Shown: positions 5,741 through 18,822 of the stretch, piece by piece
How the letters are laid out: every line of letters starts with the position of its first letter
Position numbering within the stretch: the stretch's first letter is position 1
Origin: Streptomyces sp. NBC_00091
GTDB taxonomy: Bacteria; Actinomycetota; Actinomycetes; Streptomycetales; Streptomycetaceae
Direction of reading: 5' to 3'
DNA length: 64,000 nucleotides
Assembly: GCF_026343185.1 (NCBI RefSeq)
Contig: NZ_JAPEMA010000001.1
Coordinates: forward strand, 4,836,001-4,900,000
Notes under the pieces: generated by a model
What the model saw: the letters and a program-made list of their open reading frames with translations, nothing else
What the model was told of the DNA's origin: nothing
Databases searched by the model: none
Translations under genes and position numbers: made by a program

Positions 5741-5902
5741 CGCCAGGACACTCCCGTTCAGCGTCACCCGGCGGACTTGTCAGGGGCACGTCGAGTCGTG
5801 CGGCTTCCCGGCCGCACGCCCGCAGCGCCCCCCTCCGCCGCTCACGGGCTCCGGCACCCCCACCTCAGCCGGGCCCCCGACCCCCTTCCGGGAGGACGTG
5901 AA

Positions 5903-6787
5903 GTGAGGATCAACAGCACCATCCGCCTCCGGCTGCTCGCCCTGGCCACCGGCCTGGCAGCGACTGCCGCCCTCGCCGCCCCCACCGCCGCCAGCGCGGA
6001 CGACAACGGCACCGGCTTCGGCGCCGCCCGGCTCGCCGCCGCCGGGGCCTCCGTACTGCGCGCCGACGTCGCCGGCACCGCCTGGCACACCGACCCCGCC
6101 ACCGGGACCCTCGTGGTCACCGCCGACTCCACCGTCACCGCCGCCGACATCGCCAGAATCCGGCGCGAGGCCGGAGCGGACGCGGCCGCGCTGCGCATCG
6201 AGCGCACCCCCGGCAAGCTGACCAAGCTGCTCTCCGGCGGCGACGCCATCTACGCCAGCAGCTGGCGCTGTTCGCTCGGCTTCAACGTCCGCAGCGGCAG
6301 CAACTACTACATCCTGACCGCCGGCCACTGCACTGACGGCGCCGGCACCTGGTGGGCCAACTCCTCCCACACCACCACCGTCGGCACCACCGCCGGCTCC
6401 AGCTTCCCCACCAATGACTACGGGCTCATCAAGTACGCCAGCAACTCCCCGGTCCCGCCCGGCACCGTCGGCAGCCAGGACATCACCAGCGCCGTCAACG
6501 CCACCACCGGCATGTCGGTCAAACGGCGCGGCTCCACCACCGGCACCCACAGCGGCTCCGTGACCGGCCTCAACGCCACCGTGAACTACGGCGGCGGCGA
6601 CATCGTCTACGGAATGATCCGGACCAACGTCTGCGCCGAACCCGGCGACAGCGGCGGCCCCCTCTACTCGGGCAGCCGCGCCGTCGGCCTCACCTCCGGC
6701 GGCAGCGGAAACTGCTCCTCGGGCGGAACCACCTTCTTCCAGCCCGTCGTCGAGGCCCTGAACGCCTACGGAGTCAGCGTCTACTGA
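5903..6787 (+). CDS. Secreted S1 family serine protease (streptogrisin/alpha-lytic type)
   Basis: Extracellular chymotrypsin-fold protease of 294 aa. The GTG at 5903 is chosen over upstream starts because GGAGG lies 7 nt before it and a signal peptide follows directly (basic N-terminus, [22 protein letters not shown]). After a short pro-region (about residues 32-110) comes the catalytic domain. His142 lies in LTAGHC, Asp172 in NDYGLIKY and Ser250 in [12 protein letters not shown]. Four cysteines fit the two disulfides of the streptogrisin A/B group. The GDSGGP context with T/S-rich loops suggests chymotrypsin-like specificity, but this is only an inference. A very strong hairpin closes the unit. 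Confidence 0.92.
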
Positions 6788-6874: not shown

Positions 6875-6919
6875 TTGAAGCGCATCGGCATGAAGCGCAT
6901 CGACATGAAGCGCATCGGC
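6875..6919 (+). repeat. Three 15-bp tandem repeats at the start of the SLOG gene
   Basis: Units TTGAAGCGCATCGGC, ATGAAGCGCATCGAC and ATGAAGCGCATCGGC follow each other exactly. Each starts with a potential initiation codon and encodes (L/M)KRI(G/D). It probably arose by slippage duplicating the start; the third copy (MKRIGVTGHR) is the natural beginning of the domain. Confidence 0.9.
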
Positions 6920-7384
6920 GTGACCGGCCACCGGTCGATTCCCGATCAGGTGCTCGGTCATGTGGAAGAGGGCCTGCGGGCCGTGCTGGGCGGCCACGAG
7001 GGCCCACTGGAGGCCTTCTCCAGCCTCGCGGACGGCGCCGACCAGCTCTTCGCCGACATCGCCCTGGAATACGGCGCCGACCTCACCGTCGTCATCCCCA
7101 GCGGGGACTACGAGGACACCTTCGAGGACCCCGACGCCCTCGCCGGCTACCGGCGGCTCAGGCGCCGCGCCGCCCAGGAGGTCCGGATGGCCTTCGCCCG
7201 CTCCACCGACGAGGCCTACTACGCGGCCGGCACCTACATCGCCGACTCCTGCGACCGGCTCGTCGCCGTCTGGGACGGCCTCCCGGCCCGAGGGCACGGC
7301 GGCACCGGCGAGATCGTCGCCTACGCCCGGGCCCTCGGCAAGCCCGTCACCGTCCTGTGGCGCGAGGGCGTGACCCGGGACTGA
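6875..7384 (+). CDS. SLOG-like nucleotide-binding (LOG/DprA Rossmann) protein
   Basis: A 169-aa soluble protein. GVTGHR at residues 15-20 is the first-strand glycine-rich motif of SLOG/TIGR00725-like Rossmann domains. SSLADGADQLFADIALEYGADLTVVIP then gives the conserved second helix and strand, and the C-terminal GTGEIVAYARALGKPVTVLW matches the family's closing motif. SLOG domains bind or process nucleotide-derived ligands and often pair with SLATT membrane proteins; such a gene (7412-8320) lies convergent, 27 nt away. GGGGAGG 7 nt upstream supports the TTG start, but two in-frame ATGs (6890, 6905) lie within a 15-bp triplication, so the N-terminus is uncertain by ten residues. The ligand is unknown. 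Confidence 0.72.
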   Translation: MKRIGMKRIDMKRIGVTGHRSIPDQVLGHVEEGLRAVLGGHEGPLEAFSSLADGADQLFADIALEYGADLTVVIPSGDYEDTFEDPDALAGYRRLRRRAAQEVRMAFARSTDEAYYAAGTYIADSCDRLVAVWDGLPARGHGGTGEIVAYARALGKPVTVLWREGVTRD

Positions 7385-7411: not shown

Positions 7412-8320
7412 TCAACTGCTGTGCCGGGCCAGCCAGTCGGTGTGCTGCGGGGACACGTACCGCTCCGTCTCGTAGACGGCCGACGGCCAATGGGACTCCG
7501 TGATGGTCGTCTGCATCACGACCATCATCGCCGACAGGTCCTGCTCGATCAGGGTGTGCGCCTCGATCAGCGGATGGCGGCGCCGCACCTCCTTCCAGGC
7601 GATCCCCGCCGTCGCCGTCGCGCTCAGCAGCCCCGCGGGCACCGCCCCCGGACCCGAGCCGAACGCCCCGAACAGCGCGAACAGCAGGGCCAGACAGGTC
7701 AGCAGCACGATCACCCCCGACCACAGCGCCGTCGTCCGCCGCGCCCCCTCCGTCTTGCGCTGGTACCAGTTGCGCTGCTCGATCAGCCGGTCCCGGACGT
7801 ACGTCTCCCTGCGCACCTGGTAGTCCAGCCCGCGCAGCCGCTGCATCGCCCCGGTGATCTCCCCTCCCTCCGGCACCAGGCCGGCCGGCCGCGGATCCTG
7901 CCAGCCCATCTTGCGCAGCTCGTCCAGGCCCGCCTCCAGCCGCGTCCGGTACACCCCCTCCGGCCCGGCGACCTCACTGCCGAAGGGCGCCCCGTGCACG
8001 GCGTACCGCCACGCCAGGGACTTGATGAACTCGGCCGCGCTGCGGTTGAGCTGCCACTGCGGACGGGCCCGGCGCCGGGTCGCCCGTACGCCCACGGCCA
8101 GCACCCCCGCGTACGCCAGCGCGCTCAGCGCCGCGAACACGTGCAGCCCGCCGACGGCGGGCCCGGAGGGCAGGGCGGCGGCCCCCGCCGCGGCGACCAG
8201 CAGCATCAGCTGGGCGCGCGTGGCCTGCGTGGACTCCCGCTGCCGGGAGATCGCCGCCTGGTCGGTGTGGTGGAAGAGGGCCGGCAGGTCCTCGTTGCGA
8301 AAGGTCATGCTGTCGGGCAC
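7412..8320 (-). CDS. SLATT/DUF4231-type membrane protein
   Basis: A 302-aa membrane protein. The GTG at 8320 is preferred because GGGGGG lies 4 nt upstream; an ATG at 8308 and a longer reading to 8368 lack a site. There are two hydrophobic pairs: LMLLVAAAGAAAL with HVFAALSALAYAGVLAVGV near residues 35-80, and SGVIVLLTCLALLFALFGAFG with PAGLLSATATAGIAW near 215-260. Between them is a conserved soluble segment (RSAAEFIKSLAWRYAVHGAPFG, YVRDRLIEQRNWYQRKTEGARR). This is the layout of SMODS/SLOG-associating two-TM (SLATT/DUF4231) effectors, which are predicted to act on membranes upon nucleotide signals. It follows fxsT on the same strand after 88 nt, so it may be the last gene of the fxs operon, and it faces the SLOG gene. 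Confidence 0.75.
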   Translation of the reverse strand: MPDSMTFRNEDLPALFHHTDQAAISRQRESTQATRAQLMLLVAAAGAAALPSGPAVGGLHVFAALSALAYAGVLAVGVRATRRRARPQWQLNRSAAEFIKSLAWRYAVHGAPFGSEVAGPEGVYRTRLEAGLDELRKMGWQDPRPAGLVPEGGEITGAMQRLRGLDYQVRRETYVRDRLIEQRNWYQRKTEGARRTTALWSGVIVLLTCLALLFALFGAFGSGPGAVPAGLLSATATAGIAWKEVRRRHPLIEAHTLIEQDLSAMMVVMQTTITESHWPSAVYETERYVSPQHTDWLARHSS

Positions 8321-8408
8321 AGCGCCCCCCAACTCTCGGGTGGCGGACGGCGGGCACCCCACGAACATGGGGCCCCGCCGCCCTCCTACGGATCACCACG
8401 CGGCCGGA

Positions 8409-11400
8409 TCACACCGCGAGCGGCTCCAGGTCCCGGTGGACCCGCCGCTCGTCGCGGGCGTACCGGGTCAGACCGTGGTCCTCGCCGAGCAGCCGCGTCA
8501 GCTCGGACACCGCCTCCGCCCGCACCCGGGCCGCCTCCTCCTTGCGGCCCATCATGTCCAGGCTGACCGCCATGTTCGACGCGCTCGCCAGGGTCTCCGG
8601 ATGGTGTGCGCCCAGGGCCTCGCGCAGCCGCACCACCGCGATCCGCTCCAGCTCCAGCGCCCCCTCCGGATCCCCCAGGTCGGCCCGCGCGTTGGCCAGG
8701 TTGAGGTGCGCGAAGATGGTGTGCGGGTGGCTGTCGCCCAGCACCTCGCGCATGCTGCGGATCGTCTGGCGCAGCATCGGATCCGCCGTGTCCGCCGCGC
8801 CCGTGCCCCAGTGGAAGACCGCCAGGTTGTTGACCGCCGCCAGGGTGTACGGGTGCCGCTCGCCCGGCACCTTCATGTACTCGTCCACCACCTCCTGCGC
8901 CAGGTCCCGCGCCGCGCCCGGATCACCCGTCGCGAACAGGTCCGAGGCCAGGTTCAGCTCACAGGCCAGCAGGTCGGGGTTGACCGAGGTGTACTTGGCC
9001 CGGTAGCGGTTGCGGGTCGCCGTCGTCAGCCGCAGCGCGTCCTCCAGCTCCCCGGCCCGCCGCAGCGACACCGCCAGGTTCTTCGCCGCCGACAGCGTGC
9101 CCGGGAAGGCCCGGCCCAGCTGCTGCTTGTAGATGTCGTACGTCCGGCTCAGCAGTTGCACCGAATCGTCGTAGCGGCCCACCTCGCGCAGGTCCCGGGC
9201 CAGGTTCTGCGCCGACGACAGGGTGTACGGGTGGTCCGGGCCCAGCACCTCGGTGCGCCGGTCGAAGACCTCCTGGTCGATCTCCCGGGCCCGCGCGTAC
9301 TGCCCGACCATGCGCAGGTTCAGCGCCAGGTTGTTCGCCGCCGCCAGGGTGCGCGGGTGCGCCTCGTGGAAGATCTGCCCGAAGCCCTCGTGCGCGGCCG
9401 TCGCCAGCTCCATCGCCTCGCCGTACCGGCCCATCGCGCCCAGGTCCATCGCCAGACCGCTGGTCGTCATGTACGTGTGCGGATGCGAGGGGCCCAGCGC
9501 GGCCCGCTGCCGCTCCAGCGTCACCTCGTCCAGCTCCTTCGCCTCCACGAACCGGCCCTGCGAGCGCAGGATGTTCGACAGGTGGAACCGCAGGTACAGG
9601 TACTGGAGGTCGTCGCTGCCCAGCATCTCCCGCCAGGACTCGCGCAGCTCCTCGCCCAGCGCGTACGCCGCCTTGAAGTCACCGCGCTTCCACAGGTAGC
9701 GGACCCGGTCGATCAGCAGCCGGCGGGTCTCCGGCTCCTTGCAGAACCGGGCCTCGGAGGGGCTCAGGTGCGGCCAGATCGTGTTGAACCGCGGCCAGGT
9801 CGCCGGATTGTCTATCGGCTCGTCGTCGTCCGGCCGGGCACCCGCCAGGATCCGGTGCACCGCGTGCCGGGCCTCGCGCTGCTCCTCCTCCGACAGCTGC
9901 GCCCGGATCACCGCCTGCACCAGCCGGTGCACCTGGATGCTGTTGCTGACCTGGTCGACCTTGGCCATCGCGAACCGGCCGATCTCCCGGATCACCCGGC
10001 CCAGCACCAGCTTCTCCTGGAGCGAGGAGTCGTACGGCTTGAGGGCGTCGATCATCTCCTTGCTGTAGAGCAGGTTCGCCGATATCGGCTCCGGCGCGAA
10101 GAAGGCGCACAGCTGGAGCAGGCGCACCGCGGCGGGGGAGCGGGACTGCAGCCGCTCGATCGACACGTTCCAGGTCGCGGCCACCGGCTCGGGGTATCCG
10201 GGCGGCTGGTTCAGGCCCAGCACCCGCGCGGCCTGCTGGGCCAGCTGCTCCAGGTACGCGGACACCGGCGTCGCGGTCTCCGCGATCCAGGCGCCCGCCT
10301 GCTCGACGGCCAGCGGCAGGTCGCCCACCGCTATGGCCACCTGCTCGGCGTCGTCCTTGGTGAGCCCGGGGGCCCGGCGCTGGAGGTGCTCGATGGACTC
10401 CTCGCGCAGGAACACGTCCACCGGCAGTGCGTCCCCGTACTGGGACCAGGACTGGTTCCGCGAGGTCACCAGCACGTGCCCCGGGCCGCCCGGCGGGAAG
10501 AACCGCTTGAGGGTCTCGGGGTCGTCGGCGTTGTCGAAGACCAGCAGCCAGCGCGAGGAGGGCACCCCGCGCCGCAGCAGGTCGATCGCCTCCTGGGAGG
10601 CGGCCGACATGTCCTCGCCCGTCTGGGCGCCCAGCCGTACGGCCAGTTCCGCGAGGGCCGCGACCACGTCGTCGGTCTGCTCCGAGGAGATCCACCAGAC
10701 CAGGTCGTAGTCGGCCATGAACCGGTGGACGTACTCCAGCGCCACCTGGGTCTTGCCCACGCCGCCCAGCCCGTACAGGGTCTGCGGCTGCGGCAGCACC
10801 ACGGCCATGCCGCCGCCGAGCTGGTCGCGCATCCGCTCCAGCACGATGGACCGGCCGGTGAAACCGGGGTTGCGGGGCGGCGCGTTCCAGATCTTCGGGA
10901 CGGTCCCCGGGAAGCGGGGTCCGGGCTGGGAGGCGCTGGCGACGCTGTCCGGCAGCGCCATCGGCCGCTCCACCGCGCGCAGCAGGGCGGTGGTCGCGTG
11001 CACCTCGTCGAGCCGGAACAGGTCCACCGGGTTGCGGTCGATGTAGGGCGTGGCCAGCCGTACGTCGCCCACCCGCAGCGGCACCAGATGGCGCCGGCCC
11101 CCGGTCGGGTCCTCGGCCGCCGCCCGGTTCCACACGTCCACGGCCCGGGCCGACTTGAGGTAGGCGCTGGAGAGCAGCACCACGGTCCGGGCGGCGGTGT
11201 CGACGCCGATCCCCGCGCCCAGGGTGTCGCCGGGGGAGGTGTCGGGCGCCCGCTCGGCGGAGACGTCCTTGGGGACGACCCGGAAGCCGGCCCGGGTGAG
11301 CACCGACTCGATCCAGTCGGCCCACATCCGGTTCTCGGCGACGTAGGACAGGAACAGGTCGGCGGGCAGCGCCGGGCGGCGCCGGGTGAAGGCGTCCCGG

Positions 11401-12383
11401 ATCCGCAGCCGCACCTCCTCGCCGATGGCGGGCATCGAGGTGATCTCGCCCTCGGTGACCACCGTGGTGAGCCGTTCGAAGGCGGAGAGCAGGGAGTTGG
11501 TGAGCCCGGCCTCGTCACCGAAGGTGGCCAGGGTCTCCTCGTAGGCGTAGTAGGGCCGGTACGGGATCTCCACCGCGCCCCAGTAGGAGGTCAGTTCGTC
11601 CCCGACCAGGCCGTTCGGGAAGCGGTCGAACTTGATCCGGGCCAGCGCCCGGCCCGCGTCGGCCTTCTCCTTCTCGCCCTCGTCGATGCGCATCGGGACC
11701 GGGTAGATCTTGATCCCGCGGTCGTTGAACCGCTCGTCGATCTGCCGGGCCACCGAGGCGGCGCCGTCGATGGACTGGTCGGACAGGGTGAAGCAGTCGA
11801 CCAGGATGTCGGGGAGGTGGACGGTGCAGATGTCGGCGATGTCGGACAGCCCGGTGCGGCTGTCGATCAGGACGTAGTCGTAGTTGCGCTTCATGTCGGC
11901 CCGCAGGGCGTCGAAGAAGAGGCCGCCGCCGAGCCGGTCGTAGAAGTTGTCCCAGTCGAAGGTGGACACGGTCGCCGAGTACTCGCGGTTCTGCCGGCCC
12001 GCGGAGACGAAGTCGAGGGTGCCGCCGTCCGGGAACTCCCAGCCGAGGGTCTCGGGGGTGAGGGAGACGGCGTGCGGCTGGATCCGCGCGTAGTCCTTGT
12101 GCCAGTCGGCGGCGCGCTGCACGGGGCTGGTGGCGGCCCAGGCGTACTCGCTGATCAGGTCGATGACCCCGGTGGTGGCCCCGAGGGTGGAGGGGTCCAG
12201 GAAGGGGTGGAAGAAGCGGTGCAGGCCCGGGGCCTCCAGGTCCCAGTCCACGGCGAGCACCCGCTTGCCGTTGGCGGCGAGGATCCAGGCGGTGTTGGCC
12301 AGCGCCATCGTGCGGCCGGTACCGCCCTTGTACGAGTAGAAAGTGACGATGCGTCCGTCTCGGCTGTCACGACTGGCTGTCAT
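8409..12383 (-). CDS. fxsT: FxSxx-COOH system STAND/TPR protein FxsT
   Basis: A 1324-aa multidomain protein. Residues 11-330 form a MinD/ParA-like SIMIBI NTPase with deviant P-loop YKGGTGRT (Lys19) and VLIDSRTG. Residues from 341 (ADLFLSYVAENRMWADWIES) to about 480 form a TIR-like domain. Residues about 500-830 form an NB-ARC STAND ATPase with P-loop GLGGVGKT (Lys544) and the Walker-B-like WLLVFDNADD. From about 870 to the end there are TPRs with the repeated pattern LGxxHPxTLxxxxNLAxxLxxxG. This is the standard architecture of the FxSxx-COOH tetratricopeptide protein. GGGGGGA precedes the ATG, and the gene overlaps fxsC by 17 nt. STAND proteins oligomerise on ligand sensing; here the ligand might be the FxsA peptide, but that is inference. 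Confidence 0.93.
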   Translation of the reverse strand: MTASRDSRDGRIVTFYSYKGGTGRTMALANTAWILAANGKRVLAVDWDLEAPGLHRFFHPFLDPSTLGATTGVIDLISEYAWAATSPVQRAADWHKDYARIQPHAVSLTPETLGWEFPDGGTLDFVSAGRQNREYSATVSTFDWDNFYDRLGGGLFFDALRADMKRNYDYVLIDSRTGLSDIADICTVHLPDILVDCFTLSDQSIDGAASVARQIDERFNDRGIKIYPVPMRIDEGEKEKADAGRALARIKFDRFPNGLVGDELTSYWGAVEIPYRPYYAYEETLATFGDEAGLTNSLLSAFERLTTVVTEGEITSMPAIGEEVRLRIRDAFTRRRPALPADLFLSYVAENRMWADWIESVLTRAGFRVVPKDVSAERAPDTSPGDTLGAGIGVDTAARTVVLLSSAYLKSARAVDVWNRAAAEDPTGGRRHLVPLRVGDVRLATPYIDRNPVDLFRLDEVHATTALLRAVERPMALPDSVASASQPGPRFPGTVPKIWNAPPRNPGFTGRSIVLERMRDQLGGGMAVVLPQPQTLYGLGGVGKTQVALEYVHRFMADYDLVWWISSEQTDDVVAALAELAVRLGAQTGEDMSAASQEAIDLLRRGVPSSRWLLVFDNADDPETLKRFFPPGGPGHVLVTSRNQSWSQYGDALPVDVFLREESIEHLQRRAPGLTKDDAEQVAIAVGDLPLAVEQAGAWIAETATPVSAYLEQLAQQAARVLGLNQPPGYPEPVAATWNVSIERLQSRSPAAVRLLQLCAFFAPEPISANLLYSKEMIDALKPYDSSLQEKLVLGRVIREIGRFAMAKVDQVSNSIQVHRLVQAVIRAQLSEEEQREARHAVHRILAGARPDDDEPIDNPATWPRFNTIWPHLSPSEARFCKEPETRRLLIDRVRYLWKRGDFKAAYALGEELRESWREMLGSDDLQYLYLRFHLSNILRSQGRFVEAKELDEVTLERQRAALGPSHPHTYMTTSGLAMDLGAMGRYGEAMELATAAHEGFGQIFHEAHPRTLAAANNLALNLRMVGQYARAREIDQEVFDRRTEVLGPDHPYTLSSAQNLARDLREVGRYDDSVQLLSRTYDIYKQQLGRAFPGTLSAAKNLAVSLRRAGELEDALRLTTATRNRYRAKYTSVNPDLLACELNLASDLFATGDPGAARDLAQEVVDEYMKVPGERHPYTLAAVNNLAVFHWGTGAADTADPMLRQTIRSMREVLGDSHPHTIFAHLNLANARADLGDPEGALELERIAVVRLREALGAHHPETLASASNMAVSLDMMGRKEEAARVRAEAVSELTRLLGEDHGLTRYARDERRVHRDLEPLAV

Positions 12384-13848
12384 CCGCGTCCCCCCGGTCC
12401 GTGTCTGTGGTGTCGTCGTGCCTGTCGTGCCTGTCGTGTCCGCTGAGTCGTGCGTCGTGCCGTCCGTCCCGCGCGTGCTGGGCGGCGGTGGGTGGGAAGG
12501 GGGCCGGCGGCGGTGCGGGCGGCCCGCTCATTCCCATCGGCCCCAGCAGCCGCGGGCGTTCGGTGGGGGTGTTCCCGGCCGGCAGGTACACCTGGGCGTG
12601 TCTGAGGAACTGCTGCGCGGCCGCCTCGACCACCTGCGGCAGGATCTGGCCGAGGGTCTCCATGTTGGCCACGCCGTTGGCCGCGGCCCGGCAGGCCGCC
12701 CGGCCCTGGCTCATCTTGACGGGCAGGGTCTCCTCCAGCCGGTGCGCCAGTTCGGTCTCCTTGGCCCGGCTCTGGTGGTCGTAACGGTTCCACGGCACGA
12801 CCACGTTGATCCACGGGCGGTGCTCCTGGTCGAAGGCGGCCAGCCGCTGGCGGCGCTGCTCGTCCTCCACCGCCCAGCGGTCGACGATCAGGATCTCCGG
12901 ACGGGTGGGCGGCTGCTTGCTGTCGAAGTGCCCGGCCTCGTCGTCGAAGGAGGACATCGTGGTCTGGTAGTTGAGGTTCTTGACCAGGTCCTCGGCCACA
13001 TAGGCGATGGGCCGCTGGGAGACGGGATGGTACGGGTTCCAGTCCAGGGCGCTCTCCCCGTAGTACTCGGGGCTGCGGCCGTCCGGCAGATCGTGCCGGG
13101 AGGAGGCGGCCACGGTCACGTGGAGGGTGCGGGAGGGGCCCCCGCCGGCTCCGCCGGTGTGGCCGCCGGCGGGTCCGAAGGCGCTGGGCACCACCCGGTA
13201 GTCCAGCGGGCGGACCGGGTGGAGGCGTACGGTCTCGGCGACCCGGACGATCCGCCGGGCCAGCTCGTACACCGCCTGCTCGTACTGCTCGGCGTACCCG
13301 CGCAGTTTGATCAGCCCGTACAGCCCGTCGGTGACGTAGCGCTCGCCGAAGGTGTTGTGGTTGAACTGCAACCGCTCGGCGGGGCCGGGCAGTTGGGAGG
13401 GCGGCACCGGCACCCACAGGGCGGGGACGATGGCCTCCGCGGCCGGCTGGTTGCTGATCGCTCCGTGCTGGATGGTGCGCTGCGCGAAGGCGAACCACTC
13501 CTTCCCGCACATCTCACTGGCGAAGTAGCGCGGCGAGAACAGGGGGACGAAGACCCGGCAGGTGGCGAGCGCCGCCCCGAGCCGTTCCGACCAGCCCTCG
13601 CCGCTGCGTATTTCCCGGTCCATGAAGCCGGCCTCGGCGCCGGCGGGCAGGTCCGTCAGCGCCATGATGTGGCTGCACAGGTCGCGGAAGAGGCGCTCCA
13701 CCCACATGTCGGGATCGGGACCCCCGGGCCCGAACCTCGGTGTATGCGCATAACTGAGAAAAAAGTACGGCTGCACTGATGCGGGCACACGACCCCCGTC
13801 CCGAAGCTGCGAGCGAAGAGACATCATTCCGGAGCTGCTTCGCCACAT
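12367..13848 (-). CDS. fxsC: TIR-like protein FxsC
   Basis: A 493-aa protein with an N-terminal TIR-like domain: PYFFLSYAH at residues 27-35, FMDREIRSGEGW, VFVPLFSPRYFASEMCGKEW. A second, uncharacterised domain (about 240-430) is followed by an acidic/His-rich C-tail with RHDRHDD repeats. This matches the TIR-like FxsC of FxSxx-COOH loci. The start is uncertain: the ATG at 13848 has GAGGGG directly abutting it, while a GTG at 13788 (residue 21) has GGGACGGGGG 4 nt upstream and begins just before the TIR strand. It sits 19 nt after the acetyltransferase-like gene and overlaps fxsT. NADase activity is not established for this TIR-like subgroup. Confidence 0.88.
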   Translation of the reverse strand: MWRSSSGMMSLRSQLRDGGRVPASVQPYFFLSYAHTPRFGPGGPDPDMWVERLFRDLCSHIMALTDLPAGAEAGFMDREIRSGEGWSERLGAALATCRVFVPLFSPRYFASEMCGKEWFAFAQRTIQHGAISNQPAAEAIVPALWVPVPPSQLPGPAERLQFNHNTFGERYVTDGLYGLIKLRGYAEQYEQAVYELARRIVRVAETVRLHPVRPLDYRVVPSAFGPAGGHTGGAGGGPSRTLHVTVAASSRHDLPDGRSPEYYGESALDWNPYHPVSQRPIAYVAEDLVKNLNYQTTMSSFDDEAGHFDSKQPPTRPEILIVDRWAVEDEQRRQRLAAFDQEHRPWINVVVPWNRYDHQSRAKETELAHRLEETLPVKMSQGRAACRAAANGVANMETLGQILPQVVEAAAQQFLRHAQVYLPAGNTPTERPRLLGPMGMSGPPAPPPAPFPPTAAQHARDGRHDARLSGHDRHDRHDDTTDTDRGDADDSQS

Positions 13849-13867
13849 CCCCTCATCGTTCAGTCAA

Positions 13868-14698
13868 TCAGCGTCTGTTTTCGGTCATCCAGGCCAAGGC
13901 GTGGTCCACGGCGTGCTGAATCGAGAAGAACACGGCGGATGCCCCTCCCACCCGCCCCCTGCGCATCAGCGAATCCGGGAATGCCCGGCCGATCTCCTCG
14001 AAATCCCCGTCGTCCAGCGCGACGTCCTCGTACCTGGTCCACGCCCCCTCGTGAGGGCCCCCTCTCCGCCCCTCCGGAAGGTTCACCTTCACCACACAGT
14101 CGTACATGCGCAAGAGGGGCTTCGGAATTCGGTACTCCGCGAGATGGAAAGCCGTACAGGCCGAAAATCCCACATTGATCATGAGTACCTGTCCTCCCTC
14201 CCAGCACAGTTTTCCCAGCGGCGAGTCCTCACCCAGGTGGTTTTCGGTGCGGTGCTCCGCGCACAGCCGGTGCGCGTCCGCGCCGAGCGCGGCGAAGGAA
14301 CTCTGCGGGTGGTCGCTGCGGGCGGCGCCCGGCGTGGTGCGGACCAGCTCGGCGAAGGCGCCCATGCCCGGGCAGGGGGTGCGGGCCGGGTCGAAGGGGG
14401 GCATCCGCGCGCGGAAGGCGGCCGTCTCGTTCTCGCCGAGGCCGGCGACGCGGGTGAGGTGGGCGGTGGAGGTGAGGGAGTTCTCCATGGTGAAGGCCGG
14501 GACGACCAGGGTGCCGTGGGGGCCGAGGAGCCCGCGCAGGGCGTCGCGCAGGGTCTCGGCGCGCAGGCCGGTGCCGCCGAGGGCGGCGTGCACCAGTAAT
14601 CGCTGCCCGGGGCGCACGCCGAGCAGCCGGAGCTGGGCGGCCAGCCGGTAGCGGCCCGGCGGGCCCGGTGGGACGGCCGGGACGGCCGGGACGGTCAC
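13868..14698 (-). CDS. AAC(3)-fold N-acetyltransferase-like protein of the fxs operon
   Basis: A 276-aa cytoplasmic protein of the aminoglycoside 3-N-acetyltransferase (AAC(3)/YokD) fold. The GTG start overlaps the fxsB stop (GTGA), which implies translational coupling. Family motifs: RLLVHAALGGTG near the N-terminus, GTLVVPAFTMENS, the SDHPQSSFAALGADA motif, and DSPLGKLCWEGGQVLMINVGFSACTAFHLAEY, which carries the catalytic His region. The usual NTALH is here CTAFH. Coupling to a radical SAM maturase argues that the substrate is the FxsA peptide or a linked metabolite rather than an aminoglycoside; that is inference. Resistance should not be assumed from the family name. Confidence 0.82.
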   Translation of the reverse strand: MTVPAVPAVPPGPPGRYRLAAQLRLLGVRPGQRLLVHAALGGTGLRAETLRDALRGLLGPHGTLVVPAFTMENSLTSTAHLTRVAGLGENETAAFRARMPPFDPARTPCPGMGAFAELVRTTPGAARSDHPQSSFAALGADAHRLCAEHRTENHLGEDSPLGKLCWEGGQVLMINVGFSACTAFHLAEYRIPKPLLRMYDCVVKVNLPEGRRGGPHEGAWTRYEDVALDDGDFEEIGRAFPDSLMRRGRVGGASAVFFSIQHAVDHALAWMTENRR

Positions 14699-16950
14699 GC
14701 GTCGACCGCCTTCAGCTCCCAGCGCAGCTCCTCCACCAGCCGCTTGCCGGTCACCGTCAGCTCGGCCGCCTCCGCCAGCCGGTCCAGGGCGCGGTGGATC
14801 CGGTCCGCGCCGCCGGGCTCCTGCGTGGTCGTGGCCCTGCGGTACGCCTCCACCGCGACCCGCTCGTGCACGTCGGCCAGCAGCCGGGACACCGGCACCG
14901 GGCGCGTCCGCCAGGGTGAGGGGTGCTGCCAGGCCCCGTCCAGCGCGTAGAGGTCGGCCACCTCGGTCAGCGCCCGCAGCCGGGCCCGGCGCCGCCCGGT
15001 CAGCAGGGCCAGCGCCGTCTCCCGGACCCCGGCGGCGTACGGCACCCCGAGCGCGCCCGGCCCGTGCCGCCCGGCCTCGCCCCAGCCACCGGCCCGCGGG
15101 CCGCCGGCGAGCGGGGTCAGGGTGCTCAGCCCGGCGGCGGCCGCCCGCGCGAACTCGGGGACGGTGCGGTGCAGCAGTGCCCAGGCCGCGTCGAGCCGGC
15201 CCCGCCACGCGTCGGCCTCCCCGGCGCCGAGCCGCAGCCGGGGCGGGCGGGCGAAGCAGTTGCGGTACGGGTCCAGGTCCTCCAGCGCCACCGCCGGCGC
15301 GCCCGGCCCCGGCGACCAGGTCCGTACGGGCAGCCAGCGCGCGTCCCCCGCCGCCGGGCCGAAGCGGTGCTCGGTGCGCCCGTCGCGGACGACCCCGCAC
15401 CCCTCGCCGGTGGCGTGCAGCACGGCCCGCCCCCGGGTGCCGGGCTCCCCGAGCCGCAGCAGCCCCAGCGTCGGCAGGTACACCTCGCCGTCCCGGTACG
15501 CCACCTCGGCCGGCAGCTCCAGCCCGCCCCGCAGCACGGCGGCCGCCGCCAGCGCGGCCAGCCTGCGGGCCGCTCCCGGGCCGTCCGGGCGCCCCTCCCG
15601 CACGGCGTCCAGAGCCTCCAGCACCCAGGTCCGGGTGAACGGGTGGCCCAGTACGGCGTCCAGCGCGTCCGCGCCCGCCTCCCCGGCCTCCTCCACCCCG
15701 GCCAGCAGCTCCCAGGCCCGCGCCCAGCCGGGATCCCGCGCGAGGTCGCCGTGGAGCCGGGCCAGCAGGACCCGGGTCAGCTCCTCCTGGGACCGGGCCA
15801 GTTCGGCCGGGTCGGTCAGCTCGGGCGCGGTCTCCCGGGCGGCCGTGCGCCCCTCGACCCCGTCCACCAGCTCGCGCAGGTCGGTGCAGTAGACGGAGGG
15901 GTTGTCGAAGCCGTCGGGCTCCCGGTAGCGGTGCGTGTAGAGGCCGCCCCCGCACGAACGAACGACGGGGCAGCGGCGGCACGTGTCGCTGACGCCGGCC
16001 AGCCCCAGCTGCCGGGCCCGGACCCCGGGATGCGCCGCGACCTCGTCGAAGGCGTGGTCGAAGACGTTGAACCCGGTGGCCGCGGCCCCCTCGAAGGCGC
16101 TCTTGAGGGAGTCGACCTGCTCCAGCGCCCCGTCGGTCTCCACCACGACGAGGTCGGTCGGAGCCAGCCCCAGGGACTCCGTCAGGCTGGGCCCGCCGCG
16201 CAGGGTGGACAGCAGGGACTCGAAGAGCCGTACCGGCACCGGCCGTTCCAGCTGCTCCCAGCGGTCGAAGACCCGCAGCAGCCAGCGCGCGTACGCGTCG
16301 GGCGCGCCGTCGGGCCGTACCGGCGGGGTCTGCCAGGTGGCGTGCGGGAGCAGGAAGTCCACCCGGGGCGGCTCCAGGGCGACCAGGGCCTCCAGGACGG
16401 CGACCGGGTCGTTGGCCACGTCCACAGTGCACAACAGGCCCTGGTAGAGGTGGCGGTAGGGCTCCGAGCGGAGCAGGGCCACGGCGGCCAGGACCAGCGG
16501 GTGGCTCGACCGGCCGTCCGCGAAGCGCCGGTGGCGGTCGTTCGCCGCGCGGTCCCCGTCGAGGGAGATGCCGACCCGGACGCCGTACTCGGCGAAGAGG
16601 TCCAGGTAACGGCGGCTGAGCTGGAGCCCGTTGGTGTGGATCCGCAGATCGAGGGCGGCCGTACCGCGGAGGGCGCGGGTGAATTCCTCACACACCAGGC
16701 GCAGTCGGTCCGGGCCCGCCAACAGGGGTTCCCCTCCGTGGAGGATCACCGTGACGGAGGGGAGTGCATGGTCACGGGCATGTTCGGCGAGCCGCGACGC
16801 GGTCTGGGAAATGACCCCGGGGGAGATCACTTTCGGCCGGGCTCGCCAGCTCTGATCTGCGTGTTCGTAGACATAGCAATGATCACAAGCGAGATCGCAT
16901 CTGCTGTGAACCTTCAGGACGATCTCGCGGAATGCGATCAGGCCGGTCAT
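14695..16950 (-). CDS. fxsB: FxsB radical SAM/SPASM peptide maturase
   Basis: A 751-aa maturase. The radical SAM cluster motif is Cys18-x3-Cys22-x2-Cys25 (CDLACDHC), followed by HGGEPLLAGPDRL and VGISLDGD. SPASM-type cysteines come near residue 330 (CRRCPVVRSCGGG) and in YCTDL. FxsB enzymes are known to form cyclophane C-C crosslinks in three-residue motifs of the precursor. The C-terminal approximately 350 residues correspond to the HEXXH-domain fusion of the family, but where the HEXXH is expected (residues 651-655, within LALL..RLRALTEVADLY) this protein has TGRRR. The ATG is 29 nt after the fxsA stop. It is coupled to the AAC(3)-like gene by a GTGA overlap. Confidence 0.93.
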   Translation of the reverse strand: MTGLIAFREIVLKVHSRCDLACDHCYVYEHADQSWRARPKVISPGVISQTASRLAEHARDHALPSVTVILHGGEPLLAGPDRLRLVCEEFTRALRGTAALDLRIHTNGLQLSRRYLDLFAEYGVRVGISLDGDRAANDRHRRFADGRSSHPLVLAAVALLRSEPYRHLYQGLLCTVDVANDPVAVLEALVALEPPRVDFLLPHATWQTPPVRPDGAPDAYARWLLRVFDRWEQLERPVPVRLFESLLSTLRGGPSLTESLGLAPTDLVVVETDGALEQVDSLKSAFEGAAATGFNVFDHAFDEVAAHPGVRARQLGLAGVSDTCRRCPVVRSCGGGLYTHRYREPDGFDNPSVYCTDLRELVDGVEGRTAARETAPELTDPAELARSQEELTRVLLARLHGDLARDPGWARAWELLAGVEEAGEAGADALDAVLGHPFTRTWVLEALDAVREGRPDGPGAARRLAALAAAAVLRGGLELPAEVAYRDGEVYLPTLGLLRLGEPGTRGRAVLHATGEGCGVVRDGRTEHRFGPAAGDARWLPVRTWSPGPGAPAVALEDLDPYRNCFARPPRLRLGAGEADAWRGRLDAAWALLHRTVPEFARAAAAGLSTLTPLAGGPRAGGWGEAGRHGPGALGVPYAAGVRETALALLTGRRRARLRALTEVADLYALDGAWQHPSPWRTRPVPVSRLLADVHERVAVEAYRRATTTQEPGGADRIHRALDRLAEAAELTVTGKRLVEELRWELKAVDA

Positions 16951-16979
16951 TCCACCAGTCTAGAGCTCGTAACTCACCG

Positions 16980-17144
16980 TCAGAGCGCAGAGTTGAAGAT
17001 CGGAGTCTGAACGTGACGACCGGATTCCGACGGGAGTACGCGGCCGAGCGCCGCGGCCGCGGACGCGCTGTGGGCGTCGATCTTCGTGAGCGGGACCCGG
17101 CGGTCCTTGACCGTGCTGGTCGGGGGGGTTGCGGAAGTGTTCAC
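16980..17144 (-). CDS. fxsA: FxSxx-COOH precursor peptide FxsA
   Basis: A 54-aa peptide ending in FNSAL followed directly by TGA, which fits the defining C-terminal F-x-S-x-x-COOH motif (F50, S52). A GTG start at 17144 is chosen because GAGGA lies 7 nt upstream; a longer frame to 17252 exists but would give an atypical N-terminus. The body has the family pattern: Ser/Thr-rich beginning, VPLTKIDAHSASAAAALGRVLP, a linker, then the core. It is the first gene of the minus-strand unit, 29 nt before fxsB. The predicted modification is a crosslink within the FNS triad. Too short to be found by default gene calling. Confidence 0.88.
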   Translation of the reverse strand: MNTSATPPTSTVKDRRVPLTKIDAHSASAAAALGRVLPSESGRHVQTPIFNSAL

Positions 17145-17389: not shown

Positions 17390-17935
17390 ATGCCCACCGC
17401 ACCCGTGATCCTGCTGCTGTCCGGAAGCCTGCGCGCCGGTTCCTCCAACAAGACCGTGCTGCGCACCGCGCGCTCCGTGGCCGCCGAGGCCTCCCCGCCG
17501 CTGCGCGCCGTCCTCTACGACGGCCTGGGCGGGCTCCCGCACTTCAACCCCGATGACGACACCGACCCGTTGCCGGCCCCGGTGGCCGCGCTGCGCGCGG
17601 CGATCGCGCGGGCGGCGGCGGTGCTGGTCTGCGCCCCGGAGTACGCGGGCGGCCTGCCCGGCTCGTTCAAGAACCTGCTGGACTGGACGGTGGGCGGCAC
17701 CGAGATCTGCGACAAGCCCGTCGCCTGGGTGAACGCCGCCGCCCCGGGCCGCGGCGAGGGCGCGCAGGCCCAGCTGCGGACGGTGCTGGGCTATACGGGC
17801 GCCGCCGTCGTGGATCCGGCCTGCGTGCGGATCCCGGTGGCCCGCGGGGCGGTGGACGCCGACGGGATCATCACCGACCCCGCCGCCCGGGCCCGCCTCG
17901 CCGAGGTGCTCGCCCTGCTGGCCGGAGTCGCTTAG
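17390..17935 (+). CDS. NADPH-dependent FMN reductase family oxidoreductase
   Basis: A 181-aa flavodoxin-fold protein. LLLSGSLRAGSSNKTVLRTA near the N-terminus is the FMN phosphate-binding loop, and CAPEYAGGLPGSFKNLLDW is the family signature around the isoalloxazine ring. It probably reduces FMN, quinones or azo compounds with NAD(P)H. The stop overlaps that of the convergent hydrolase gene by 4 nt. A weak purine site precedes the ATG. No link to the fxs genes beyond adjacency is visible. Confidence 0.88.
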   Translation: MPTAPVILLLSGSLRAGSSNKTVLRTARSVAAEASPPLRAVLYDGLGGLPHFNPDDDTDPLPAPVAALRAAIARAAAVLVCAPEYAGGLPGSFKNLLDWTVGGTEICDKPVAWVNAAAPGRGEGAQAQLRTVLGYTGAAVVDPACVRIPVARGAVDADGIITDPAARARLAEVLALLAGVA

Positions 17936-18822
17936 GCCGGCTGCTGTTCCCCCAGTGGCTCGCGCAGCAGCCAGTTGAGTACGTCGGGCAGTGCGCGCAG
18001 GGCCGCGAAGTGCGCGGCGGCCGGGTCGATGGTGGTGGTGGCCCCGGGGATGCGTCGGGCCAGCCAGCGGGAGTGGCCCACGGGGGAGAAGACGTCCAGC
18101 TCCCCGTGCCAGAGCAGTACGGGGCAGCGGATGTCGGCGGGGTCGAAGCCCCAGGGGCTGCTGAAGGCGAGGATGTCGTCGATCCACCCGTACGCGGAAG
18201 TGCGCACGCCCTCACGGTAGTTGCGCAGCAGCATCGACCGCAGGCCCGCGTCCGAGACGATCATGCGGTCGCTGTCGGTCAGCTCCCGGCGCAGCTCGTC
18301 CAGGAGCCGTCCGGGGTCCCTGGCGATGCCGGCGGCACGCGGGATCAGCCGGGCCGCCAGCTCCTCGGGGTCGTCGGTGGCGGTGGTGTACTCCCGTACG
18401 TTCGAGGCGGCCATTCCGGCGAACCAGTCCAGGTCCTCCGCGTCCCGGGGGGCGATGGGGACCAGGGCCGCGGTCCGGGTGACCCGCTCCGGCAGCAGGG
18501 CGGCGCAGGCCAGGGCGCCGGGGGCGCCGCCCGAGCGGCCGGCCACGGCGAAGGTGTCCAGCCCGAAGGCGTCGGCGATCGCGGCCACGTCCTGGGCCAC
18601 GTCGGCGACGGTGCGGCCCGGGTGGCGTTCGGAGCCGCCGTAGCCGGGCCGGTCGTAGGCGATGAGCTGCATCCGCCGCTGGTAGAGGACCATGCCGCGG
18701 GGGGCCGGGCCGAGTCTGCTGCCGGGCATGCCGTGGAGCAGGAGGACGGGCTTGCCGTCCGGGTCGCCCCAGCGTTCCGCCATCAGGGCGCGTCCGTCGG
18801 CGGTGCGCACCTCTTTGCGCAC
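17932..18822 (-). CDS. Alpha/beta hydrolase
   Basis: A 296-aa cytoplasmic alpha/beta hydrolase. It has the oxyanion segment LLLHGMPGSRLGP, IAYDRPGYGGS, the nucleophile elbow VAGRSGGAPGA (Ser in G-R-S-G-G) and the late PVLLWHGELDVFSP acid region, then AAAHFAAL with the catalytic His. The GRSGG elbow is common in proline-iminopeptidase-like and haloperoxidase-like hydrolases, but the substrate is unknown. It starts at GTG 18822 after GGGAGGGAG. It converges with the FMN reductase gene. Confidence 0.88.
   Translation of the reverse strand: MRKEVRTADGRALMAERWGDPDGKPVLLLHGMPGSRLGPAPRGMVLYQRRMQLIAYDRPGYGGSERHPGRTVADVAQDVAAIADAFGLDTFAVAGRSGGAPGALACAALLPERVTRTAALVPIAPRDAEDLDWFAGMAASNVREYTTATDDPEELAARLIPRAAGIARDPGRLLDELRRELTDSDRMIVSDAGLRSMLLRNYREGVRTSAYGWIDDILAFSSPWGFDPADIRCPVLLWHGELDVFSPVGHSRWLARRIPGATTTIDPAAAHFAALRALPDVLNWLLREPLGEQQPA

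Follow-up and report, generated by a model that had tools for sequence, protein, structure and literature searches.

A Streptomyces FxSxx-COOH peptide system with a recurrent SLOG-SLATT partner, proposed as an alarm relay

Background

Standalone FxSxx systems are described by Kaur et al. 2020, in the section devoted to them, as a peptide encoded with a radical S-adenosylmethionine (SAM)/SPASM gene and an AP-ATPase whose C-terminus carries repeats and whose MinD/ParA-like domain is inactive (PMC7159879). The same section of that paper proposes the peptide as a toxin or signal coupled to the ATPase, which resembles nucleotide-binding leucine-rich-repeat receptors (NLRs), and ties some standalone systems to a regulator recognising cyclic nucleotide monophosphates (cNMPs) (PMC7159879). 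Our literature search found no paper on the biological role of FxSxx systems and none on FxsB itself. Here we analyse an FxSxx-COOH (Fxs) locus of Streptomyces sp. NBC_00091, located in a window of 64,000 nucleotides (nt), by which we mean the whole stretch analysed (contig NZ_JAPEMA010000001.1, positions 4,836,001 to 4,900,000). With near certainty the locus holds a complete Fxs family set. We propose that it is a standalone Fxs system of a subtype coupled to a SLOG-SLATT pair and working as an alarm relay, a reading to which we give somewhat less than an even chance.

Thoeris consists of the TIR protein ThsB and the SLOG-bearing protein ThsA, and SLATT-SLOG and TIR-SLATT conflict pairs were reportedly described by Burroughs et al. 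in 2015. A two-transmembrane SLATT protein with a nucleotide-related partner is predicted, in the relevant passage of PMC9503650, to be a membrane effector controlled by ADP-ribose. In DRT10, which joins a reverse transcriptase to a SLATT protein, the latter is described as the likely effector and is required for phage defence (relevant passage of PMC12632851). The main text of PMC7159879 names SLATT three times, in passages that concern GTPase-centric (GAP1) systems.

The locus and its linkage to SLATT and SLOG

Six closely spaced genes on the minus strand make up the row reported by the initial annotation, and every product scores above a curated family cut-off. The gene fxsA (16980..17144) is read from a GTG start into a precursor of 54 amino acids (aa) with an FNSAL-COOH end (codons 16983-16997). 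After a gap of 29 nt follows fxsB(H) (14695..16950; 751 aa), encoding a radical SAM/SPASM maturase whose C-terminal HExxH-type domain lacks HExxH; it overlaps by 4 nt the gene of an AAC(3)-fold, FrbF-like N-acyltransferase (13868..14698; 276 aa), an optional member of the set. Another 19 nt on lies fxsC (12367..13848; 493 aa), with an N-terminal TIR and a C-terminal alpha/beta domain, which overlaps by 17 nt fxsT (8409..12383; 1324 aa; ParA-like, TIR, NB-ARC STAND NTPase and TPR domains). The last gene of the row encodes a membrane protein with SLATT_3 and SLATT_1 domains (7412..8308; homologue-inferred start, frame open to 8368). Its start options, ATG 8368, GTG 8320 and ATG 8308, lie 40, 88 and 100 nt downstream of fxsT; the 88 nt first reported holds for GTG 8320, but ATG 8308 is preferred because most of the closest homologues listed are 298-303 aa long. 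The same description had overlooked a SLOG-fold gene on the plus strand (6875..7384; probable start ATG 6890 or 6905), convergent with the SLATT gene.

The fxs genes are associated with one another far beyond chance. Among the best 80 of 124 contigs encoding FxsC relatives, all from Streptomyces except one from [Kitasatospora] papulosa, FxsB, FxsC and FxsT are consecutive in 80 of 80 loci. The link to SLATT, posed as a check on co-occurrence, is recurrent as well. FxsC was found in 95 of 246 sampled Streptomyces genomes (93 above cut-off), leaving 151 FxsC-negative. At E 1e-40 SLATT is present in 69 genomes, every one of them among the 95; at E 1e-10 it is present in 81, namely these 69, three more (G240, G253 and G260; 43-47% identity), one with a truncated copy (G187) and eight with remote matches of only 26-35% identity, seven of the eight being FxsC-negative. 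The seven remote-SLATT regions examined had no FxsB, FxsC or this SLOG adjoining SLATT; in one of the remote-SLATT regions, L198, the FxsT profile is weakly matched about 7 kb off. This SLATT therefore goes with FxsC in 73 of 73 genomes and occurs in 0 of the 151 FxsC-negative ones; for contrast, DUF1684 is found in 157 of 246.

Proximity was assessed with 130 of 133 FxsC matches (the three second pieces of split matches were excluded), 70 SLATT matches and 103 hydrolase matches. At E 1e-40, 64 of the 70 SLATT matches lie within 10 kb of FxsC, compared with 0.275 expected under uniform placement; four of the other six are on contigs without FxsC, and two, in G080 and G178, are orphans accompanied by SLOG, in genomes with FxsC elsewhere. 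A hypergeometric figure of 1e-39 for co-occurrence ignores kinship and was set aside. The membrane component first proposed is present, usually as a SLOG-SLATT pair rather than as SLATT alone (77 of 78 SLATT-bearing loci), and we consider this pair very probably a functional partner of fxs.

So far as the pieces permit, the loci mostly have the same flanks: to one side SepF, DUF5685, DUF1684, a trypsin-like protease, SLOG and SLATT, to the other an alpha/beta hydrolase. SLATT follows fxsT head-to-tail in 26 loci, which form the window's clade (median gap 86.5 nt in the matched stretches). SLATT is divergent and upstream of fxsA in 52 others, because there the fxs block lies in the opposite orientation, and 2 of the 80 loci, both on short contigs, have no visible SLATT. 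The description of SLATT as the sixth gene of the row accordingly suits 26 of 78 SLATT loci and fails in 52; the head-to-tail order is thus clade-specific. Other arrangements occur. L117 has the order A-C-T-B-AAC-SLATT and a convergent SLOG; in L115 and L118 SLATT is divergent, and neither the DUF1684 nor the trypsin flank was found; L123 has SLATT without SLOG; and L161, taken from a class-wide sample, has, one after another and in the same orientation, SLOG, SLATT, an FxsA candidate with the end FNSSI, FxsB, FxsC and FxsT. At seven corresponding sites in fxsC-negative genomes (L106-L112), DUF1684, a hydrolase and, at all seven, a trypsin-type protease are adjacent, with neither SLATT nor SLOG.

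Two variants stand apart. One fxsC-negative site (L106, 12364-14768) holds a bare fxsA-fxsB pair at the same chromosomal position, with a precursor ending in FNSSL and an FxsB 69% identical, and without fxsC, fxsT, SLATT or SLOG beside it. L162-L164 and L167-L172 represent a different Fxs subfamily, with FxsC matching as two pieces, an additional FxsT-like gene and, in between, FxsB in the opposite orientation; SLATT was not found in them.

FxsA, FxsB and the AAC(3)-fold protein

The precursor ending in FNSAL is confirmed by its translated end and by TIGR04268 (39.2 bits, cut-off 28). An F-x-S-x-L end is found in 71 of 71 FxsA relatives detected by similarity, one strain being counted twice (L005, L125). 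Further candidates were sought with the pattern F-x-S-x-x-stop, and 10 of 11 scanned loci yielded one; the ends of these are no independent evidence, because the pattern itself was the query.

FxsB matches TIGR04269 (583 bits, cut-off 370) and NF040587, the "inactivated" or lost-HExxH form (430 bits, cut-off 225). Cysteines C18, C22 and C25 and the SPASM cysteines C324, C327, C333 and C355 are kept in at least 82 of 83 sequences, in agreement with a radical SAM/SPASM maturase. Enzymes of the FxsB type can form cyclophanes. HExxH is absent from the translation of the window's FxsB, which scores 36.4 bits against TIGR04267, below the cut-off of 40; for want of the motif we rejected an alpha-ketoglutarate (aKG)-HExxH peptide beta-hydroxylase. 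Only 3 of 82 FxsB relatives of at least 600 aa have HExxH beyond residue 350. In three SLATT-less fxs loci (L116, L120 and L122) the C-terminal domain of FxsB retains HExxH, and their pattern-sought precursor candidates terminate in FQSSV or FQSAL.

The third protein has the predicted AAC(3) fold (PF02522, 225 bits, cut-off 25), with H185 and E188 conserved in 44 of 44 sequences; its closest solved structure is that of FrbF (PDB 3sma, E 1.1e-45). At 143.6 bits it misses the curated NCBIfam AAC_3 cut-off of 270, so that, the PF02522 fold notwithstanding, assignment as an AAC(3) aminoglycoside resistance enzyme was rejected. Fixed membership of the row does not hold for this gene, which is optional: it is present in 37 of 78 SLATT-bearing loci (26 of 26 with the inverted block, 11 of 52 divergent) and in 14 SLATT-negative regions among the class-wide and further genus regions. 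In L116 and L120 it lies beyond the hydrolase, and its presence tracks no FxsA residue on inspection by eye.

FxsC, FxsT and the SLOG-SLATT pair

That FxsC is TIR-like is supported by PF13676 (35.9 bits, cut-off 28), NF040588 (235 bits, cut-off 130) and TIGR04276 (220 bits, cut-off 55). TIR enzymes use a catalytic glutamate. In FxsC the putative equivalent is Glu117 of a C-x-x-E motif (codon 13498..13500, minus strand), which is invariant in a hand-picked alignment of 25 FxsC sequences including the window's, at identities down to 27%, and aligns with a glutamate of L7 and Roq1. The closest TIR fold is that of SPARTA. FxsC thus joins a TIR fold to the expected glutamate, and may be an NADase, an enzyme cleaving nicotinamide adenine dinucleotide (NAD). 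The best listed homologues of FxsC and of SLATT are, where named, Streptomyces proteins. Four FxsC proteins of about 800 aa (P0049, P0051, P0053 and P0054), and matches split into two adjoining pieces in L194 and L195, suggest fusions or duplications.

FxsT has the ParA-TIR-NBARC-TPR build originally assigned to it: it matches NF040586 (1059 bits, cut-off 300), PF13676 (TIR_2, 58.5 bits), PF00931 (NB-ARC) and TPRs, and its ParA-like domain, with KGGTGR, matches the KGGVGR-variant ParA family NF047398 (147 bits, cut-off 90). Its TIR catalytic glutamate is not conserved. Across 91 sequences glutamate stands at position 416 in 28 and at 419 in 43, and the window's protein reads D-V-W-N at 416-419; as it is conserved at neither position, FxsT was rejected as a TIR NADase. 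Both its TIR and its ParA domain have the look of scaffolds rather than of catalytic units.

The SLATT protein has tandem domains (PF18184 SLATT_3, 129 bits; PF18181 SLATT_1, 121 bits, cut-off 26.3) and two hydrophobic blocks at about residues 34-76 and 191-223, and so combines a SLATT domain with transmembrane segments. The product of 6875-7384 is predicted to adopt a SLOG Rossmannoid fold and may bind a nucleotide; its structure alignment used a hand-picked 32 sequences, including the window's, from about 83 SLOG relatives.

A proposed relay and its alternatives

Computation gives the families, the intact glutamate of FxsC and its non-conservation in FxsT, the predicted SLOG fold and the recurrent linkage, and from these we infer every activity of the relay and the order of its steps. 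FxsB would crosslink the C-terminal F-x-S of FxsA into a cyclophane, and the FrbF-like enzyme would perhaps acylate the peptide afterwards. The state of FxsT, an NLR-like hub of the STAND class (signal transduction ATPases with numerous domains), would depend on the modified peptide as its ligand. Once switched, FxsT would gather the TIR domains of FxsC, which would cleave NAD+; the SLOG protein would sense an ADP-ribose-type product or the loss of NAD+ and open the SLATT membrane protein, leading to cell arrest or death. That the peptide acts as ligand or trigger, as the initial annotation suggested, is plausible but not a new idea, since a role as toxin or signal, with coupling to an NLR-like ATPase, has been published (PMC7159879, standalone section). 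For the full relay, from cyclophane peptide to SLATT, our confidence ranges from doubtful to just short of even. The most specific version, a peptide-licensed bacterial resistosome in which the cyclophane ligand acts through FxsT and the FxsC TIR domain and an NAD-derived product lets SLOG gate a SLATT pore, stands at the doubtful end of that range.

Several observations weigh against the relay. Our literature search found no assay of any protein of the locus, and PADLOC recognised no known complete defence system in a scan of the six minus-strand proteins, the SLOG protein being outside the scan. The co-occurrence counts ignore kinship. SLATT is near 64 of 130 FxsC matches in the Streptomyces sample, with L176 and L178 extra, so that about half have none nearby. 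FxsC was found in 35 of 325 genomes class-wide, and of 20 regions drawn from the 30 listed loci (duplicates of the genus sample and two others excluded) only L156 and L161 have SLATT and SLOG. Another 20 regions of the genus sample, mostly picked for lacking SLATT at E 1e-40, newly gave SLATT and SLOG in L176 and L178, an already counted copy in L189 and SLOG alone in L177; no SLATT was found in the remaining 16. On this mixed record SLATT is a frequent, not a constant, partner. The FxsC glutamate is retained in SLATT-negative loci too (L116, L120-L122). L113 and L114 have SLATT and SLOG at the site without fxs, FxsC being elsewhere in both genomes. In one strain, Streptomyces sp. H27-H5 (L005/L125), a deletion of about 1.1 kb relative to L006 (L005 15535-15814; L125 13749-14028) has cut SLATT and SLOG down to their N-terminal ends, the fxs genes being present. 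Finally, the SLATT-fxs distance correlation over 35 loci is no higher than that for the core gene SepF, and vertical inheritance can therefore account for the congruence.

The best-placed alternative, though unlikely, is a developmental or stress-signalling circuit in which FxsT reads the cyclophane peptide as a signal, either intracellular or released, and TIR and SLATT serve programmed cell death or hyphal differentiation, not phage defence. The genes around the locus, which lies near sepF, are ordinary chromosomal ones, no further defence gene was recognised among its Pfam-scanned neighbours, and both the toxin-or-signal proposal and the cNMP-recognising regulator of some standalone systems (PMC7159879, standalone section) would suit such a role. 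Pfam scans of the neighbours, however, revealed no regulator or exporter. Patchy presence (95 of 246 genomes), fxsC-negative sites, second copies and rearrangements also speak against it, being more usual for conflict systems.

SLATT and SLOG might instead be mere chromosomal neighbours of an fxs block that sits beside them at one site, the window's head-to-tail order being a chance inversion. The inversion of the block relative to its flanks in the window's clade, the fxs-free pairs of L113 and L114, the joint loss in L005/L125 and the SepF comparison all fit. Yet this SLATT is missing from all 151 FxsC-negative genomes and from the seven fxsC-negative sites, and it accompanies fxs off those flanks or in other gene orders in L115, L117, L118, L123, L156, L161, L176 and L178 (the flanks were checked in the first four only); we regard this explanation as quite improbable. 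Equally improbable is that FxsC is itself the terminal effector by NAD+ depletion, with SLOG-SLATT an add-on or signal-clearing safety valve and the peptide holding FxsT off at rest: its glutamate persists without SLATT and its nearest TIR fold belongs to SPARTA, an NAD-depleting effector, but the confinement of this SLATT to FxsC-positive genomes is left unexplained.

Should the relay prove right, a bacterial NLR would be under the control of a modified peptide as its ligand, and TIR signalling would be regulated in a new way; FxSxx systems are common in Streptomyces (95 of 246 genomes). The resistosome version, if true, would bring together, within a single module that rearranges, a ribosomally synthesized and post-translationally modified peptide (RiPP), an NLR, signalling by TIR and a membrane effector gated by a nucleotide. 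The SLOG-SLATT partner offers a testable output, in membrane potential and an NAD-derived nucleotide, and the four gene orders, seven fxsC-negative sites and one SLATT-SLOG deletion are natural test material. Streptomyces sp. H27-H5 is a natural test strain unless its 1.1-kb loss is an assembly fault.

Neighbouring genes

An alpha/beta hydrolase gene (17932..18822, minus strand; PF00561, GRSGG motif) recurs near fxs loci and is a candidate accessory. Of 130 FxsC matches, 87 have it within 12 kb, and in 8 of 20 class-wide regions it is convergent with fxsT; a relative (52-60%) also stands at fxsC-negative sites. Its product is possibly a leader peptidase or an unrelated passenger. Between fxsA and the hydrolase lies an FMN-reductase-like gene (17390-17935, plus strand; FMN, flavin mononucleotide), present in only 3 of 80 loci (L010, L012 and L026). 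The trypsin/alpha-lytic-type protease (5777..6787, plus strand; PF00089) belongs to the chromosomal flank and served as a control gene, not a member. Among 14 proteins encoded between 2648 and 20180, 2 of them without any Pfam match, none matched vWA, MoxR or VMAP in Pfam; as no such gene was matched beside the peptide genes, assignment to the VMAP/vWA ternary systems was rejected.

Comparison with known systems

Among solved structures the AAC(3)-fold protein stands nearest to the N-acetyltransferase FrbF. In Thoeris, SLOG is part of ThsA; in the window it is free-standing beside SLATT, the locus also has a RiPP and a STAND NTPase, and no SIR2 was recognised in the 14 Pfam-scanned proteins. 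The PADLOC models for ThsA and ThsB gave no match at E 0.1 in the scan of the six minus-strand proteins, which left out the SLOG protein. With DRT10 the locus has in common SLATT as the likely effector, but the DRT10 trigger is a cDNA-making reverse transcriptase with a noncoding RNA, as the relevant passage of PMC12632851 has it, and no reverse transcriptase was recognised among the scanned window proteins. With the standalone system of Kaur et al. 2020 it shares the FxSxx peptide, the radical SAM/SPASM enzyme and the AP-ATPase with an inactive MinD/ParA-like domain; the standalone-system section of that paper mentions neither SLATT nor SLOG, and the window's locus has both (PMC7159879). The SLATT-SLOG and TIR-SLATT pairs, as the relevant passage on SLATT presents them, have the same combination of SLATT with a nucleotide-related partner (PMC9503650), to which the window's locus would add a cyclophane RiPP and an NLR-like hub.

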